From: Magnolia sinica
Lineage: Eukaryota; Streptophyta; Magnoliopsida; Magnoliales; Magnoliaceae
Length of the DNA: 64,000 nucleotides
Assembly: GCF_029962835.1 (NCBI RefSeq)
Contig: NC_080588.1
Span: 65,558,001-65,622,000, forward strand
Reading direction: 5' to 3'
Shown: positions 7,491-64,000 of the stretch, piece after piece
Layout: the number at the start of each line of letters is the position of its first letter
Numbering within the stretch: position 1 is the first letter of the stretch
Position numbers and translations under genes: made by a program
The notes under the pieces: generated by a model
Database searches by the model: none
What the model was told of the DNA's origin: nothing
Seen by the model: the letters and a program-made list of their open reading frames with translations, nothing else

Positions 7491-8512
7491 TTTCTTGATT
7501 TTTATATTACTTAGAAGGTATTTGATAAAATACTTGTAAAACCATTGCCACTGTCTTAAATACAGTTAGATTTTGAAGGTGAAGTCCAGGTAAGTGTGAA
7601 AATGCTGCACATGCACATGAACTCAGCTCAATCTTGGCTTGAACTCGGCTCGAACTGGCCCGAGCTACTGACCAAACTGAGTCGAGCTGAGGCCAGCTCA
7701 ACTCAGTTCGACTCGATGTACACACCTAGGTGGACCACACCATTGGAAACCGTGGTGAATAACCAATTAAAGGTTTTTGTGGGATACGAAAGTTTTTTAT
7801 CAGGCTGATTTTTATATTTCCCTTCATTCAGGTCTTTTTGACCTTATCAATGGGTTGGATGGAAGAAAAAATAACGGAGGGCATTAATGTAGCCATAGGA
7901 AAAACGGATGTACGGAGTGGATATACAACAAATCAACAAGGTGGCCCCATGGTAAGGATAACACCGAATCCGCTCCCCACATGATCAAACTACTTTCTAT
8001 ATTTACACGTGTTGCACACACATCTATATGATACACATCTGAGGTGAATGATGACGTCATATCTGGCCCTACTTGACTTCTGGGGTAATGCATGTTATGA
8101 TCTGGTCCACGTGCTAAACGGCTTGGATCTTACACAAACTTTCTACAGTTGGCACCAATTGCTACCAAAAGAAACAAGTCATGTGACTAGTCTACTATAT
8201 GGGTGCGTTTGGATGTTCAATCAGAATGAATTGCAATTTCAATTCAACAAAGAGTTATTCACCATATTGCAATTGGGTGTTTGGCTGTCATTATGAATTT
8301 AAATTTCACCGTTGTTACAAGATTTTGAGTCAATAGATGTAGTTGATCGTGAATATATATTCACAGATGGACCTACAAAGACTAGGGAGATGTGGACAAC
8401 AAGGGTACCAGTGATTGGCTATGGTCCTTCCGGTGCTTAAATTAAGTTGATAAACTTGGATCAAGGACTACATGGTAAGTTTGGAGCTTACCTTTTCTTG
8501 TTTGGCATAGTT
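7491..8512. other. Spacer between blocks B and B'
   Basis: No gene. 7600-7728 looks like one end of a hAT-type element of the 30278 family (GAGCTnGGC boxes, ending GTACACACCTA). 7730-7960 is half of a GGGCCCACC-family MITE. The rest shows nothing recognisable. Confidence 0.45.
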
Positions 8513-15367: not shown

Positions 15368-17944
15368 CTACATGCATCTCCCTCCATAGCCTGCATTTCT
15401 GAATAGTGCTTGCTTTATCTCTTCAGAGTTCACCACTGGTCTCTGCTCCAGATCCTGGCCAAATGAAATAAATATTATTATCAGGTTATTGGAGGAATCA
15501 CGAACGGAGAAAAGATGAATGGCCCACAGCATCGGATGGGAGATTCTAATGTATCTCCCATCAGATTGATCCTAGTCATTCAAGAATGGACAGTTAGGAT
15601 CATATGATGGGGGAGCTCCCTGGTATCTCCATCCACTTTAGAACACCATATGAACGGTTCAGATCACCAAGATGTGAAGCCCACATCATTTAAAGGGTCC
15701 TTCCAATCCTAGCCATCCACTGAGAATGGACACTCAGGATCATATGATGGGGGAGATTTTGGGTATATCCAATCCGCTTTAGCCACTATATGAATGATTT
15801 TCATCAAAAATATGTGGGGCTCACATCATCGGGTGGGCCCTTCCAATATATTCCCCATCAAATGATCCTAGCCATCCGGTGAGAATGGATAAATGGGGTC
15901 ATATGATGGGGGGGAGATTTTGGGTGTTCCCCATTCACATTAGACCACCATATGAACGGTTCGGATCACCGATATGTGGGCCCCACATGCACATCTCATT
16001 GGGTCACTCCCAGTTAGCATTTTACCTCGGAGCAGGAAGCTTGCATTCCAAAATCATTGAAGCAGCTGATAACACATTGCTGAATCTCAAGGCCTAGAGC
16101 TTCTAAAGTAGCTATGGTTGACAGCAGCAATCCGGGCTTCGTCGCGCAGCAAATATCAATCCGTGTGTCTGCATTCCTTCGTTCCACATCGAACTGCAAA
16201 AATCATTCCAAAAAATTCAATTTAGAATCGAATTTCATTGAGTATGCACTATTTTCAATTACGACGGCCCATGGTTTGATGAATCTTGGCCGTTGGAATT
16301 ATGGGTCCCGCTGGATCGGATGCCCCAACATTCTTCCAGATTGGAAGATCTTCAACTTTTATCAAATGTCTGGAAAAAAGGCCAAAAATTGGATGGCTGG
16401 GATGATTCTGATCGGAATGATTTTTGGGTCATCCTCATTATGGGCTGTTTTAGCTTAACGGTCACCGGACCATGGGCCACACTAGTATGGAATGATCATA
16501 CAACACTGGCGTCTTGATGCATCATCAGGGCCGTAGAATTACAATTTTAATTAGTAGCCTTCAAATAGTACATCAATGGTCTGGAAGAAAAAAGGCCAAA
16601 GATCGGATGGCTAGCATGATTCCGATCTGGATGACTTTTGGGTCATCACCATTACTAGCCCGCAGCTCAATGGTCACCTAAAGATGGGCCACACTATCAT
16701 GGAATGATCATATATATCTCGATGCATCATCTCGACCGTAGGATGACAATTTAGGTAGAAAGCATTTACCTTTGGAGTGTTCCTGACCAGGATTTCATTC
16801 GACGTTAGCTCCTTGAAAATGCTCAGTAGATTAAGCTGATTTGAACCCCCTTGGATTTCTTCTTGCAGCTTCTTGATTCGATCCAGCAGCTCTTTCATGT
16901 AATCAATCGTATCGCCGAGTATTGATGTTCGATCCATCTGTTCATAACCATTTCTATTGATTACTTACCACATCCAACGGTTTAGATGAAAATTTAAACA
17001 GCATTTTGCCCATTTCCAAGAGGATCAAGCTTCCATGATTTAGATCATTCACAGCTACTCATTACTGTTAAAAAATAAGAACCGTTGTATGATCTTGGTT
17101 TTCAATTTCTACTTTAGATAGATGATCCTCCAACATACTCCCAGATTTGAAAGGTTAAGATGATCTCGTTGAGGAGATTCTTGGGGCATGATCAATTCAA
17201 TGATGTGAATGATTGAACGGTGTGGATGATTGAACCATGGGCCCCATCATATAATCACCACCATAGAATGACTTGGAAAGAGAAAATGAAGAAATGCAAG
17301 TGATTAAAAATGCAAATGTTACAATCCATCCATCCATGATCAGGACATGAATAAAAAGGAATTACCTTACTGATCTTGGGGACCACTGATCGGAGCATTG
17401 AAAGGCGATCGTTCAATCGCTTCCGTCGACGCCTCTCGGCCATCAGATTCTTGGACGGCTGGCCTTCAACCTTCTTCACACGGCTCTTCCTGCCTAAACA
17501 GGAACCAACGTCGAATACTGGAATTTCAGCAGACTGGGACATTTCCACCTTGCAAATCCTCTGTTTATCATCTGAATTACGAAGATTTTCGGAGGCAAGA
17601 AGGCCTAGATCGTCGTCTTCGATGATGGAGGGGCAATCTTCTTGAGTGGGAAATGGGATGGGGTCATGGAATTCAGGCGATGGATCGATCTGGGTCGATG
17701 AAATTGTATCAACATATGGACAGTAGACTTCATTCAGGGAAGAATCGAATGTGGGGTGGGTTGATGTGGAGAATCCAAAACTGTCACAAGAAGAAAATGG
17801 GAAAACTAGATTTGGGTTGTCTTGGAAAGAATCAAAGCTACCTCCATGATTGAAAATATCACTCATTTCTATTGGGAAGCCTTCCCATGTATCTCTTCTT
17901 AGAGCAAGGAGCTCTTCTAAGAATCCATGTTCATCTAGTTCCAT
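15368..17944 (-). CDS. bHLH93: bHLH transcription factor, subfamily IIIb (bHLH93/bHLH61-like), four exons
   Basis: Nuclear DNA-binding regulator. Coding exons are 17944-17366, 16937-16770, 16193-16026 and 15454-15368; all introns are GT-AG and phase 0, giving 333 residues and a TAG stop. The basic region and helix 1 (about residues 165-193, with [12 protein letters not shown]) end exon 1. Loop and helix 2 open exon 2 ([18 protein letters not shown]). Exons 3-4 (about 259-333) form the C-terminal ACT-like segment, ending [16 protein letters not shown]. Order, splice sites and length agree with my knowledge of Arabidopsis bHLH93 (NFL, about 350 residues), reported to promote flowering in short days and to bind the stomatal factor FAMA; bHLH61 is the close alternative. 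The N-terminal 150 residues are acidic and less conserved. I chose the ATG at 17944 because [14 protein letters not shown] resembles the family start; an in-frame ATG at 18022 only adds microsatellite-coded residues. All domain residues are intact, so the gene looks functional. Confidence 0.93.
15455..16025 (-). repeat. bHLH gene intron 3 with ~145-bp tandem repeats
   Basis: A 571-bp intron. A unit containing GAGAATGGAnA, GTCATATGATGGGGG, TATGAACGGTTC and GATCACC recurs about three times between roughly 15525 and 16005, with key boxes near 15590, 15735 and 15895. The GT donor at 16025 and AG acceptor at 15455 are intact. Confidence 0.65.
16194..16769 (-). repeat. bHLH gene intron 2 with an internal ~210-bp tandem duplication
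   Basis: A 576-bp intron. Sequence near 16365-16546 recurs near 16575-16755. Both copies carry GGTCTGGAA/ATGTCTGGAA, then AAAAGGCCAAA, a GGATGGCT core, TTTTGGGTCATC, GGGCCACACTA and TGGAATGATCATA in the same order. The copies are clearly diverged, so the duplication is not recent. Splice sites are intact. Confidence 0.65.
16938..17365 (-). other. bHLH gene intron 1
   Basis: A 428-bp GT-AG intron between the two halves of the bHLH domain; this split after KISK is conserved in the subfamily. No embedded gene or clear transposon is visible. Confidence 0.85.
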
Positions 17945-17947
17945 TTC

Positions 17948-18020
<73 letters not shown>
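17948..18020. repeat. Compound (CT)n(CA)n microsatellite in the bHLH 5' leader
   Basis: An uninterrupted CT run (about 17949-17991) passes directly into a CA run (about 17992-18020), only a few bases upstream of the bHLH start codon. It is GA/GT on the coding strand. In the bHLH frame it stays open and would encode alternating Cys-Val and Arg-Glu from an ATG at 18022. Confidence 0.95.
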
Positions 18021-18025
<5 letters not shown>

Positions 18026-18412
18026 CTTGAGAGGATGTTACTACAAGCAAGAAAACTCTCTCTCTCTCACTCTAGAACACCTGAGAGAATGTTAACAGAA
18101 GCAAGAAACCCCCCTCCTTCTCTCCGAAACATTGAGAGAATGAAAAAACAAGCAAGAAAACTCTCCCAAACACCTGAGAGAATGAAAAAACAAGCAAGAA
18201 AACTCTATCCCAAACACCTGAGATAATGAAAAAACAAGCAAGAAAACTCTCCCAAACACCTGAGAGAATGAAAATACAAGCAAGAAAACTCTCTCTCTCC
18301 CCCCAAACACCCGAGAGAATGTAAATACAAGCAAGAAAACTCTCTCTCTCTCTCTCTAACACCTGAGAGAATGTCAATACAAGCAAGAAAACTCTCTCTC
18401 TCTCTCTCCTAA
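18021..18412. repeat. Minisatellite in the bHLH 5' leader, ~9 units of 38-50 bp
   Basis: Plus-strand units contain CACCTGAGAGAATG, then AAAnACAAGCAAGAAAACTC, with length differences from a (TC)n tract at the end of each unit. About nine units are recognisable, diverging outward. On the bHLH coding strand the array contains an open frame from 18452 to 18072 with a repeated motif close to ESFLACIFILSGVW. It sits between the putative TATA box and the start codon, so it is probably transcribed leader. Confidence 0.85.
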
Positions 18413-25065: not shown

Positions 25066-25518
25066 GTACGCGGTAAGACCAGCCGGCTAGCTGGTGTCAA
25101 ATTTATATGGGCCCCACCATGATGTATGTGTTCTATCCACGCCTTCTATCCATTTTTCCAGCTCATTTTAGGGCATTAGCCAAAAAATGAGGGAGATCCA
25201 AATATCAGGTGGACCACACCACACGAAAAAAGTGTTAACTAAATGTCCACCATTAAAAACTTTCTAGGTCTCACTATAATGTTTATTTGCCATTCTACCT
25301 GTTCTCCCAAAGTTTTAAACGGTAAGCACTCAATCCCCACTGTTTCCTGTGGTGTGGTCCAACTGAGATTGGGATTAGCCTCATTTATTGGGCTTACGAC
25401 TTAAAAGGATCGGTAAAAATGAATGGACGGCGTGGATAAAACACATACATCATGATGGGCCCACAGCTTTGACATCAGTTAGCTGGCTAGTGTTGGGGTC
25501 ACTAGCTAAACCGCGTCC
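25066..25518. mobile_element. Mutator-like foldback MITE of the GGGCCCACC family
   Basis: Ends GTACGCGG and CCGCGTCC, with long imperfect inverted repeats including GGGCCCCACCATGATGTATG on the left and CATACATCATGATGGGCCC on the right. Flanks TTTCAAACT and TTTCGAAAT (7 of 9 identical) look like a decayed 9-bp duplication. Confidence 0.65.
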
Positions 25519-28740: not shown

Positions 28741-29189
28741 CAGTCGATTTTTTTTTAAAGAATAGCGTGGCCGCCTGCTGGAGTCATCGCTCTGCCTAAG
28801 AGGCCACGTCATACCCGTAGGGCACCCTATCTAGAATCCTGTACGTGCGTTTCATGTTGCTCGTGTGACAGCATGTCCGTTCATCTTGCGCCAGCGACTA
28901 CAAGAATGAGAGTAGCATTCCTTGTCCACTTTTACACGTGTGCGAAGCTGCAAGCATACATGGGAAACAAACCGTACATCCACTGATCACTGGCGATAGA
29001 TGGTCACCAACGGTCCGTCTGCCACAAAGTACTCAGCAGTTGCAATCATACACGGGCGAGCATCTGATGCATGCATGCTGCTTGACTCGGTCCCCGAGCC
29101 TGACTAGCCAGCTCGGCTCAGCCTACAATTTATCAAGTACGAGCCGAGTTCAAACCAACATCGACCCAAGTTTGCCGGTGTAGCATTTT

Positions 29190-30005
29190 CACATATACTT
29201 AGTTTACACCTTCAAATTCTTAATGTACGTAAAAATACCAATAGCAGTCTCACAGGTAATTTCATCAAATACTTTGTAGGCAATATCAAAATCAAGAAAA
29301 TATAGAATTTATTTAATGAAATATACTTTCTTTACCACTAGCTGACACTTCGTTGAGCCATTTCATCAAACACTTGATGAGCAACATTAATGTCAAAGTA
29401 ACCGAGTCACTAAACTGGTTCGATTTGAGTTGGGCTCGAGTCGAGCTCGAGCAAGCTCAAACTTGGTTCAAAATTTTTTCAACCTCAAAAAATCAGCTTT
29501 ACTCAGCTTGAACTCAATTTTGAACTGAGTCTAGTCAAGCGAGCTAACACGATTAGCAACTGAGTTCAAGCCAAGATCGAGCTGAGTTCACTTGTGCATC
29601 ATTTTCATAAACACACGGACTACACCTTCAAATTTTCACTTATGTAAAACACTAGCAGTGATTTTACAGGTATTTCATCAAAACACCTGGTAGGCAACAT
29701 CAAAATCAAGAAAAAAAAAAAAAAAGGTATTTGTTTGATAAAACATAGCTTCCTTACCACTAGCCAACACTTCGTTGAGTCATTTTATCAAACACTTGGT
29801 GATCAACATCAATATCAAAGTAAACGAGTCACTGAACTGGTTCGATACAAATTTGGTTCGATCCGAGTCAAGTCAAGCTCGTGCAAGCTCAAACTCAATT
29901 CAAAATTTTTTCGAGCTCAAAAAATCAACTTGACTCAGCTTGAACTCAGTTTCAAATCGAGTCGAGTCAAGTCGAGCAAGCTAACCGAGCTAACTCAGTT
30001 CGGGT
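29190..30005. repeat. Two-copy ~400-bp tandem repeat next to a hAT-type terminus
   Basis: 29190-29585 and about 29605-30005 share ACACCTTCAAATT, GGCAA(T/C)ATCAAAATCAAGA, CACTTCGTTGAG, AACTGGTTCGAT, AGCTCAAACT and AAAATTTTTTC in order. The right end at about 30014 reads GTACAACCCTA and may be a hAT-like end. No gene. Confidence 0.7.
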
Positions 30006-30277
30006 ACAACCCTACATGCCTGGATGCCAATCTAGGCAGAATCTAGGCTAATTGAAGGTATTTGCAACATACGTGTGCAATATCCAAACTGTACTTTTGG
30101 TGGAACTGGATAACTGAGTAAACTCTACGAAGCCCACCGTGATGTATTTGTCTCATATCTAAAGCTACTTATCATCCGCACATTTTATAAACTCATTTTA
30201 AGGCATGAGCCTAAAATTAAAGCATATCCAAAGCTTAAGTGGACCGCACCACAAGAAACAATATAGTAGGTCATAGG

Positions 30278-31274
30278 TAGGGCTGTACACGAGCAAATTT
30301 AGCTCGGTAGCTTACTCGACTCAACTCGAAAAAGCTCGACTCAAGTCAGTTCAAAACTAAGTTTGAGCCGAGTCGAACTGATTTTTTGAGCTTGGAAAAG
30401 CTCCGAGCTGAGTTCGAGCTTGCTTAAGCTCGACTCGGTATTGGCTCGAACTTGATTCAATTTGACTCGGATCAACTCAAATTGAAAACCAGGTATATTA
30501 ATAATATAATATATTACATATATAAATCCTTGCCGAGTCGGTGTTTTTTTTTTTTAATTTAAAAAAACACTAAATCCCCAAATCCGTCCAGCGTCCAACC
30601 CTCTTTCTCTCTCTCTTTTTTTAGTGTCCAATGTCCGTCGAGAAATCTCCTCAATCATATAATACTTCGGATCCAGAAATCTCTTCTTCTCCAAAAACAC
30701 CGAGAAGAGAGAAAGAGAGCAAAACCCTAGATTTGCAGCAGAAAAAGCAAGGAGAAGATGTCTTCTACTTTTAGCGGCGACGAAACTGCTTCCTTCTTTG
30801 GCTTCTTCGGCACCATTGTTGCCCTCTTTTTCTCCTGTAATTTCTTTTCGATGGGTATGCACACATCTCGTCGGGGCTTACTGGGTTGTTAGCCGGGATG
30901 ACAAATGAGATCGTCAGTGATGCTAGCATCCGATAATTTATCCATCTTTATTCATTTTCTTTTGTAGATCTAGAGTTAGAGTATGGTGACTAAGCAGTTA
31001 GTAGTTCTTTAGTTTTATTTATTTATTCATTTGGATTTTTGAAGATCAGGTCTTTTCTAACTTGCATTACGAGCTCGAACTTAGTTTGAAAACTCAAACT
31101 CAAACTCGGCTTGAACTCGTCTTGAACTAGACTGAGATGCTGGCCAAGCGGAGCACGAGCTGTTGTTCCAAGCTCGAAGGTTGAGCTAAGCCGAGCACGA
31201 GCTGAGACTTAAGCTGTCCGAGTCAAGCACGAGATAGGCAAAGCTCAGCTCGACTCAACTTGTGTACACCTCTA
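30278..31274. mobile_element. Non-autonomous hAT-type element carrying V-ATPase subunit c fragments
   Basis: The element is 997 bp and flanked by a perfect 8-bp duplication GTCATAGG (30270-30277 and 31275-31282), the hAT hallmark. Its terminal inverted repeats are TAGGGCTGTACACGAG on the left and TAGAGGTGTACACAAG read inward from the right. Subterminal zones are dense in CGAGCTCGA-like boxes on both strands. No transposase is present. The middle (about 30590-30936) is not transposon-like and matches a host gene. Confidence 0.88.
30590..30936 (+). pseudogene. Captured fragment of vacuolar H+-ATPase 16-kDa proteolipid (subunit c) gene
   Basis: ATG at 30758 opens MSSTFSGDETASFFGFFG and continues to FSC at 30838, matching the conserved start of plant V-ATPase subunit c, the proton-carrying membrane ring protein. 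It is preceded by a leader-like CT-rich stretch with an AAAACCCTAG box. After about 29 bp, another frame at 30868-30933 reads SSGL then GLLAGM and IVSDASIR, corresponding to the later conserved SSGL...AGMAIGIVGDAGVR region with a few codons missing. The intervening and C-terminal parts, including the essential ion-binding glutamate helix, are absent, so it cannot make a working subunit. It lies wholly inside the hAT element, so I read it as transposon capture. Confidence 0.75.
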
Positions 31275-32052
31275 GTCATAGGAAGGTTTCAACGGTAAAT
31301 GTCATTATTTTCACTGTTTTCTCATGGTGTGGTCCACTTGAGCTTTGGACTGCTACAATTTGGAGCTCATGTCTTAAAATCAGCTGAACAAATGAATGAA
31401 TGTCCCGAGTAAGGCACAAACATCTACAGTGGGCCCCATAGAGTTTACTCAGTATACCATATTGCAATGATTTACTTAATACACAATCTGCTTTCAATTT
31501 TAATAGCCCAAATGCAAACGTAGATTGAGTATTAGTGTGGTCCACCCACTAGTCTTTTCACATATATAGGCAGGTGTATATTCAACTATGTGTGGCCCAC
31601 CTGAATTGTCTAACACAATGGCAAGATCGCCTCCTAAGAAGATCATGTGGTTGAAAGCTACATGGAGCCTAGATTCCCCTAAGTCTATCTAGTTATAATA
31701 ACCTTATGAGCGGTGTAGATGGCATGTAAAATTTATGGCCACCCTCCAGAAGGTTCCAATGGGGGACAATTCCAATCACACTGTTTCCTGTCGTGTGACC
31801 CTAAGTTTCGAACCTTACCTTATTTTGGACTTTTGTTTAAATGTCAGCCCGAAAATCAACAGAGTGTATTTATTACAGGCATTTCTGTGGGCCCATATGA
31901 CTTTCTATCATTAGATCAGTTTCTGTGGGCGGGTTATAAACCGTTTCCTTTCCATTGCTCACTCACAGTAGGGGAGCTTATAGCTCCAATGAAAATGCAC
32001 CATGTATATGCCACATGTCGAAGGCAGGTGTAGCTGGCATATTGACTTCAGC

Positions 32053-63227: not shown

Positions 63228-64000
63228 ATGAAGTTCCTCTCGTGGAATGTTAGAGGAGTCGGGTTGAAGCAGAAAAGAAGACTCCTCAAAGACACATGCG
63301 GACAAAACAATCCAGATGTTTTTTTTTTTTTTTAAAGGCAAAACAATCCAGATGTGATTTGTTTCCAGGAGACAAAGGATTAAAATTTTACTGATCAGCT
63401 GATGGGCTCTCTTTGGAAGGCTCAAGATGCAAAATGGGTAGTGTTGGAGGCTACTGGTAATGCGGGAGGTATCCTAGTGGCGTGGAAATCATCTATATGG
63501 TCTCTCGACAATAGTTGGAAAGGAGATTTCTCTCTTTCAATTATTCTTAGAAACATCTCCTTCGACTTCTGTTGTCTTATTACCTTAGTCTACGGTCCTA
63601 ATTTGGAAGACAGTAGAAACGATTTCTGGGTGGAACTTAGTGCTACAAGTTGCAAATTTGACGGCTCATGGTGCTTATGTGGAGATTTCAATATAACGAG
63701 ATATGCCGAAGAGAAGTCCCACGACACCAAGGTTACTCTAGCAATGCGGACTTTCTCTTCTTGGATCAATGACCAAGAGCTAGTGGACCTTCCCCTGCTA
63801 GGCTCAAGATTCACCTAGACCAACGGGGGGTTGAAGCCGATTCTCTCCAAACTGGACAGATTTTTGGTCTCCACCGATTGGACTGAGTCATTTCCTTTAG
63901 TGTCCCAGTCGGTCCTTCCGAGAACCACATCAGACCACTGCCTGGTGATTCTTGCAGCTGAAGATCAAAGTTAGGGCTCGAAACCTTTCGGGTTCGAAAT
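63228..64000 (+). pseudogene. L1-type LINE ORF2, endonuclease domain, truncated by the window end
   Basis: The ORF starts at ATG 63228 with MKFLSWNVRGVG. It then shows the AP-endonuclease landmarks CFQETK (near 63360), VYGPN (near 63590), CGDFN (near 63680) and TSDHCLV (near 63930), as in plant L1-like elements. It is broken: a 36-bp insertion including a T tract (63320-63355), a TAA near 63380, a TAG replacing a Trp near 63816 and another TAG near 63972. The reverse transcriptase would lie beyond the window. Confidence 0.88.
63303..63355 (-). mobile_element. 19-bp poly(A)-only insertion with a 17-bp target duplication
   Basis: CAAAACAATCCAGATGT occurs at 63303-63319 and exactly again at 63339-63355. 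Between them lie 14 Ts and AAAGG, which on the minus strand is CCTTT followed by 14 As. This is the footprint of target-primed reverse transcription that stopped almost at once, leaving a tail and five bases. Confidence 0.8.

Follow-up and report, generated by a model that had tools for sequence, protein, structure and literature searches.

Plant hAT transposons that carry pieces of host genes are already in print for maize, grapevine and rice, and the VHA-c Pack-hAT that we describe here is a further case of gene capture by this superfamily. In maize, passages of a report on Ds elements describe gene fragments in 2 Ds2 and 9 Ds-l4 elements (PMC3260210). The grapevine family Hatvine-6 has, according to excerpts of its description (PMC2528002), variable interiors that match host introns and exons. 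Passages on the Pack-TYPE hAT elements of rice and maize present them as non-autonomous, with coding DNA inside, and with related elements clustered locally (PMC8903248). Capture by way of neighbouring insertions and re-mobilisation is treated in parts of the same paper and of a 2026 review (PMC13317346). The preliminary description of the present locus had called gene capture by small hAT elements much less documented than that by Pack-MULEs. This view finds backing in the maize Ds report, which in the passages at hand calls gene capture by Ds rare, but the process is nevertheless documented in excerpts of all three papers (PMC3260210, PMC2528002, PMC8903248).

The window analysed here is a stretch of 64,000 nucleotides of Magnolia sinica (C16:65558001-65622000), and it contains a non-autonomous hAT-like element of 997 bp at positions 30278-31274. 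This element is like maize Ds2 and Ds-l4 in that all are hAT elements with an 8-bp target-site duplication (TSD), the modal length of Ds-l4 being ~1 kb, and in that all contain genomic gene fragments with introns whose source genes lie on other chromosomes, as far as the relevant passages describe the maize elements (PMC3260210). Those same passages give the maize elements ends of the Ac/Ds type with an 11-bp terminal inverted repeat (TIR), whereas the VHA-c element has TAGGG-type ends and AGCTCG-rich subterminal regions. A further difference from the maize elements, as they appear there, is that an undeleted relative documents the later internal deletion in our case. Hatvine-6 members share transposase coding sequence according to excerpts of PMC2528002, and none is seen in the VHA-c elements. 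The Pack-TYPE elements of rice and maize belong to other species and other element families, and a series of capture followed by deletion does not appear in the excerpts of PMC8903248. A literature search joining V-ATPase with transduplication yielded no paper.

We consider it very probable that the feature in the window is one copy of a Pack-hAT, which is to say a hAT-like transposon that is not autonomous and contains, between its arms, a degenerate piece of a host VHA-c gene, and that its history comprises capture, deletion, spread and decay. Host gene sequence lies between the TIRs, an intact parent exists elsewhere, no transposase is coded and the capture has been mobilised, which are the features by which Pack-TYPE elements and transduplication are defined. 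A single assembly contains the parent gene, a relative without the deletion and 17 shortened copies, so that the events can be placed in order: genomic DNA was captured, a deletion followed at a 4-bp repeat, and after a burst the copies decayed with changes of the methylation type. This provides an ordered series for studying the gain and loss of host sequence by small transposons.

Results

A hAT-like element inserted near the centre of an older palindrome

The features of the locus are as follows, with positions counted from the first letter of the window.

30113-31453, no strand: insertion target, an older palindromic (inverted-repeat) sequence with arms at ~30113-30258 and ~31318-31453
30270-30277, no strand: left TSD copy, GTCATAGG, with a single equivalent in the paralogous empty site at 25106-25287
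30278-30293, plus strand: left TIR, TAGGGCTGTACACGAG; the left-end pattern recurs genome-wide
30294-30540, plus strand: left subterminal region, rich in AGCTCG/GAGTCG (inner edge placed by eye)
30541-30647, plus strand: stretch of ~107 bp from the left arm to the captured leader, common to the C12 element from 30579 on
30648-30757, plus strand: captured 5' leader of VHA-c; the match to the gene begins at C2:121656700
30758-30836, plus strand: captured VHA-c exon 1 (MSSTFSGDETASFFGFFGTIVALFFS-), recognised by ATG frame, PDB match, tblastn and gene alignment
30837-30846, plus strand: start of intron 1 (10 nt, GTAATTTCTT), of which the final four nt are common with the exon-2 side of the deletion
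30843-30932, plus strand: late piece of VHA-c exon 2 (FDGYAHISSGL...SDASI), internally shortened by 12 bp and out of frame with exon 1
30933-31064, plus strand: start of captured VHA-c intron 2, aligned to the C2 gene
31067-31258, plus strand: right subterminal region, again with AGCTCG/GAGTCG words (inner edge placed by eye)
31259-31274, minus strand: right TIR, reading TAGAGGTGTACACAAG on the minus strand
31275-31282, no strand: right TSD copy, GTCATAGG

Both copies of GTCATAGG stand directly outside the element, and the 8-bp duplication is perfect, just as the preliminary description had reported. The TIRs of hAT elements are short and start with the pattern (C/T)A(A/G)NG, which the two ends found here (TAGGG and TAGAG) fit. 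These termini had also been described as matching; inverted ends are indeed present, but only 13/16 TIR positions agree between TAGGGCTGTACACGAG and TAGAGGTGTACACAAG. The subterminal repeat words are strongly enriched, with AGCTCG occurring 46-fold and GAGTCG 55-fold above the window background when the two arms are pooled.

The halves of the target palindrome are identical at 243/352 aligned positions, and the insertion point lies ~4 bp off the palindrome centre when the flanks are joined. An insert-free empty site at 25106-25287, which is paralogous and not orthologous, aligns over the junction with 128/185 positions identical. The element has no stop-to-stop frame of at least 130 aa and codes for no transposase, and Rfam at gathering scores returned nothing between 29000 and 32000.

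Pieces of a related hAT-like element occupy positions 29000-30014, in inverted orientation and 263 bp upstream of the element, and include two units that are 77.7% alike. On the minus strand, the right end of the upstream piece reads TAGGGTTGTACCCGAACTGAG at 30014. Its interior looks, by eye, like that of elements of ~600 bp such as L041. No TSD partner for this piece was found between 24000 and 30000, where the best one-mismatch site is at 29070. The presence of an inverted piece so close by does not by itself show the mechanism of capture.

The interior contains pieces of a V-ATPase subunit c gene

An ATG frame, MSSTFSGDETASFFGFFG..., begins at 30758, and a second segment, FLFDGYAHISSGLTGLLAGMTNEIVSDASIR, follows at 30841-30933 in another frame. 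The preliminary description read the two as parts of V-ATPase subunit c in the right order, and a PDB search, tblastn and the alignment to the C2 gene all bear this out. In the PDB search, the first segment gave an E value of 1.8e-6 and the second 0.0029, with the same top match for both. This match is a single V-ATPase subunit c1 chain (36qu_g/7uw9), which we take to be the lemon/citrus subunit c. The whole subunit c as a tblastn query scored 43.1 and 40.4 bits in the element, compared to a best of 22.7 bits in 1000 dinucleotide shuffles of the element. Pfam gave no match for the two short peptides. Outside the element pieces, the next best stretch of the window reached 23.1 bits; a contiguous local pseudogene, which the preliminary description had named as a finding that would count against it, is therefore not seen.

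In the element, exon 1 is followed by ten bases of intron 1; the match resumes within exon 2 at TCTTTTCGATGG and extends ~130 bases into intron 2, so that part of each intron is retained. The intron-2 donor of the window copy reads AT instead of GT. The 2.7 kb that precede the start of the C2 gene match contain nothing that matches the stretch at 30541-30647, and the 5' edge of the capture is uncertain for this reason.

The parent gene is located on C2

Genome searches covered the 1.84-Gb assembly (127 contigs), with listed matches on C1-C19. A protein search of the genome, in which 61/61 candidates were scored and 21 matches obtained, revealed three VHA-c genes, one each on C2, C4 and C19, and in all of them the third exon is distant. 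The C2 gene is intact (coding part C2:121656841-121668355) and comprises three exons; for the first two, the match to the subunit c in the PDB is 100% and 98%. Intron positions for VHA-c were taken from this gene itself, where exon 1 ends in CTCCT^GTAATTTCTT, exon 2 ends in CG^GTAATTTATC and exon 3 follows GCAG^GGCCAATGC.

Among the three genes, only the C2 gene matches the captured leader and introns. Its identity to the element is 83.5% over element positions 371-569 and 80.9% over 566-787, and its exons 1 and 2 are intact, whereas the C4 gene matches at 79.3% over 87 bp plus 78.6% over 42 bp, and the C19 gene at 79.3% over 87 bp. Judged by these alignments, the C2 VHA-c gene is the parent of the captured pieces. 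Transduplication of a host gene, as proposed from the window alone, agrees with a parent on C2 in which the leader is followed by exons 1 and 2 and the beginning of intron 2, as it is in the element.

A VHA-c scan of a viral contig collection found no relative, and one of a genome contig collection returned nothing useful, just 2 distant relatives in bacterial bins. Given that the first genome search scored the best 40 of 3586 candidates, more rearranged captures may be missed. One example of such a capture is L019, which keeps just two leader pieces.

An undeleted relative and 17 copies with the same deletion

An element of 3,496 bp on C12 (L011, 48779132-48782627) is complete at both ends and flanked by a perfect TSD, CTCTCTAT. 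It aligns with the gene over 752 bases at 83.2%, with the middle present. In the protein search with 61/61 candidates scored, this is the sole place besides the three VHA-c genes that has the middle of exon 2. Positions 448-2644 of this element are taken up by a ~2.2-kb insert of the form TG...CA between CAAAT repeats, an LTR-type insertion by appearance.

A search for the deletion junction pattern (up to 3 mismatches) found exactly 17 places on 10 contigs, including the window copy, while the reversed control gave 0. Other copies of the element, which the preliminary description had suggested looking for, thus exist with an identical junction. The same 282 gene bases, which begin early in intron 1 and end late in exon 2, are absent in 17/17 copies, and the 4-bp repeat TCTT is present at both edges of the loss. 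In addition, 18/18 elements with VHA-c coding pieces (the 17 and the C12 element) have lost 12 bp that are present in the gene. The preliminary description was correct that the leader, the first segment and a late segment were kept. However, the missing middle was lost after capture and not skipped at capture, as the C12 relative still has it.

Among the 18 VHA-c elements, the TSD is perfect in 9 and has 1-2 mismatches in 6; one element (L013) is without a TSD, and in 2 one end was not found. In three of the 17 copies (L020-L022), a later loss has removed exon 1 together with some of the leader. The copies L007 and L013 are sisters 130 kb apart on C4, and the left flank of L013 equals the right flank of L007. 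Because L013 also lacks a TSD, one of the two may be a local duplication.

In a tree of the captured part, the C12 element branches outside all 17 copies with a bootstrap of 86, and L018 branches outside the remaining 16 with one of 99. A tree of the whole element separates the 16 from L018 plus the C12 element (100). Nodes within the 16 are mostly weak, and thus the burst appears star-like. The alignment of copies left out L019 and L023-L025, which are without a VHA-c coding piece. Tip lengths range from 0.02 to 0.10 for the captured part and from 0.04 to 0.15 for the whole element. At the rates typical of trees, such lengths would correspond to a time between millions and tens of millions of years.

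The copies have decayed

Codon-position and divergence figures are based on 14 of the 17 deleted copies, with L020-L022 left out for their loss of leader and exon 1. Differences among these copies at codon positions 1/2/3 are 0.110/0.134/0.150 for exon 1 and 0.117/0.144/0.126 for segment 2. All three positions differ alike, and protein constraint is therefore not seen. We found no evidence for a function of the captured pieces, and we infer that the copies are now without protein function. The leader has the lowest divergence among the 14 copies, at 0.089, whereas the remaining five regions range from 0.104 to 0.168.

Relative to the gene, C>T/G>A changes are found in 143/661 CG, 150/696 CHG and 87/1586 CHH cells, and are thus about fourfold commoner at CG/CHG than at CHH, although these counts (14 copies plus the C12 element) include inherited changes repeatedly and are inflated by shared ancestry. 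A bias of C>T towards CG and CHG is the pattern expected from CG and CHG methylation in silenced plant repeats. The bias observed here suggests that the copies were methylated and silent.

Discussion

The 17 identical deletions, the middle retained by the C12 element and the 12-bp loss common to all 18 elements indicate one genomic capture, one later deletion and a star-like burst. One lineage contains ~750 bp of genomic DNA of the C2 VHA-c gene, namely the leader, the first two exons with intron 1 between them and the beginning of intron 2, with a loss of 12 bp. In a descendant the 282 gene bases are missing, with TCTT at the breakpoints. This shortened form is present at 17 sites, most with an 8-bp TSD of their own, and the copies have decayed under no visible protein constraint. 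Transposase supplied in trans by an autonomous relative probably moved the elements, and the deletion may have arisen by end-joining after a break or by abortive gap repair. For the placement of a gene piece between the termini, fusion of neighbouring elements and template switching in gap repair are both candidates.

Some features of the window copy, viewed in isolation, might invite other explanations. Its VHA-c pieces are short and broken, and Pfam is blank for them, as might be expected if they were a local pseudogene or a chance similarity that is merely flanked by terminal repeats. This seems to us extremely improbable, given tblastn scores well beyond both the best shuffle and the next best stretch of the window, the insert-free paralogous site that spans the junction, and the recurrence of the same junction at 17 places, with dispersed copies that have TSDs of their own. 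Likewise, the exon 1 and exon 2 pieces are nearly adjacent in the window copy, as they would be if the captured source had been a processed transcript rather than genomic DNA. However, this adjacency is due to the later 282-bp deletion. The C12 relative retains intron 1, and the copies retain the start of intron 2 in alignment with the gene. Such intron sequence within the elements identifies genomic DNA as the source, and leaves a retrocopy with almost no credibility. We therefore reject both readings, on account of this intron sequence and of the dispersed copies with their own TSDs. It is also very improbable that the 44-residue open frame of the window copy represents an expressed peptide under selection. 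Exon 1 is kept in 14/17 deleted copies, and the ATG in 12/14, with frames of 27-77 residues, but this very variation in frame length, the ATA in place of the start codon in L007 and L013, the absence of exon 1 from L020-L022 and the similar change at all three codon positions argue against such a peptide. Pack-hAT copies that spread from one genomic capture and then decayed remain our preferred reading.

An effect of the family on its parent through small RNAs deserves separate consideration. When simple repeats are filtered out and only the same strand is compared, the window copy and the C2 gene region have 60 distinct 21-mers and 46 24-mers in common as exact matches, and the longest run is 58 nt and lies over the start codon. 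Matches of this kind would make small-RNA cross-talk possible. Each of the 17 copies shares between 4 and 61 exact 21-mers with the C2 gene region, and the leader is the least divergent part of the copies, although base composition may explain its low divergence. Transcription from the captured leader could in principle give rise to small RNAs that match the C2 VHA-c gene, such that the family would matter for C2 expression. We regard this as unlikely, as the many C>T changes suggest that the elements are silenced, and any phenotype could be buffered by the C4 and C19 genes, which share only 0-6 21-mers per copy. A more specific version, in which the VHA-c Pack-hAT family would continually supply 21-24-nt RNAs with matches to the C2 leader and start codon that tune C2 relative to its two paralogues, seems to us similarly unlikely.

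The wider element family and other observations in the window

A large family sharing the left end exists in this genome. A 30-base left-end pattern, allowing up to 2 mismatches, occurs at 1,321 sites (677 forward, 644 reverse), with 0 in the reversed control. Twenty perfect left-end sites were opened, of which 15 have a right end and a TSD with 0-2 mismatches and 5 do not. Fourteen of these two-ended elements measure 534-628 bp and one 1,308 bp, and the captured VHA-c part has no match in any of the 15. The elements of 534-628 bp (14 of the 20 sites) are thus like the VHA-c elements in their left terminus, their AGCTCG-rich arms and their 8-bp TSD, but unlike them in having no VHA-c match.

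No autonomous partner was found among the 20 opened sites of the 1,321. By eye, there is no transposase in the two longest frames of L031, L036 and L048, which are 3 of the 5 sites without a close right end. The frames of L031 appear to belong to a PPR gene next door, those of L036 contain nothing recognised, and those of L048 look like a Copia retrotransposon.

The elements L023, L024 and L025 have the same arms with a different, leader-like interior. That of L025 has at least 40 matches (the best 40 of 186 candidates were scored), and L046 matches part of it. Together, the VHA-c copies, the elements of ~600 bp and those with the L025-type interior imply at least three different interiors among elements of this kind.

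Within the window, another fragment with an AGCTCG-rich right arm is located at 7600-7735 and ends near GATGTACACACCTAGG. Two longer frames were also noted by eye: one of 260 residues at 17255-18037 (minus strand) with a bHLH-like stretch, and one of 144 residues at 63384-63818 (plus strand) that resembles a LINE endonuclease domain.
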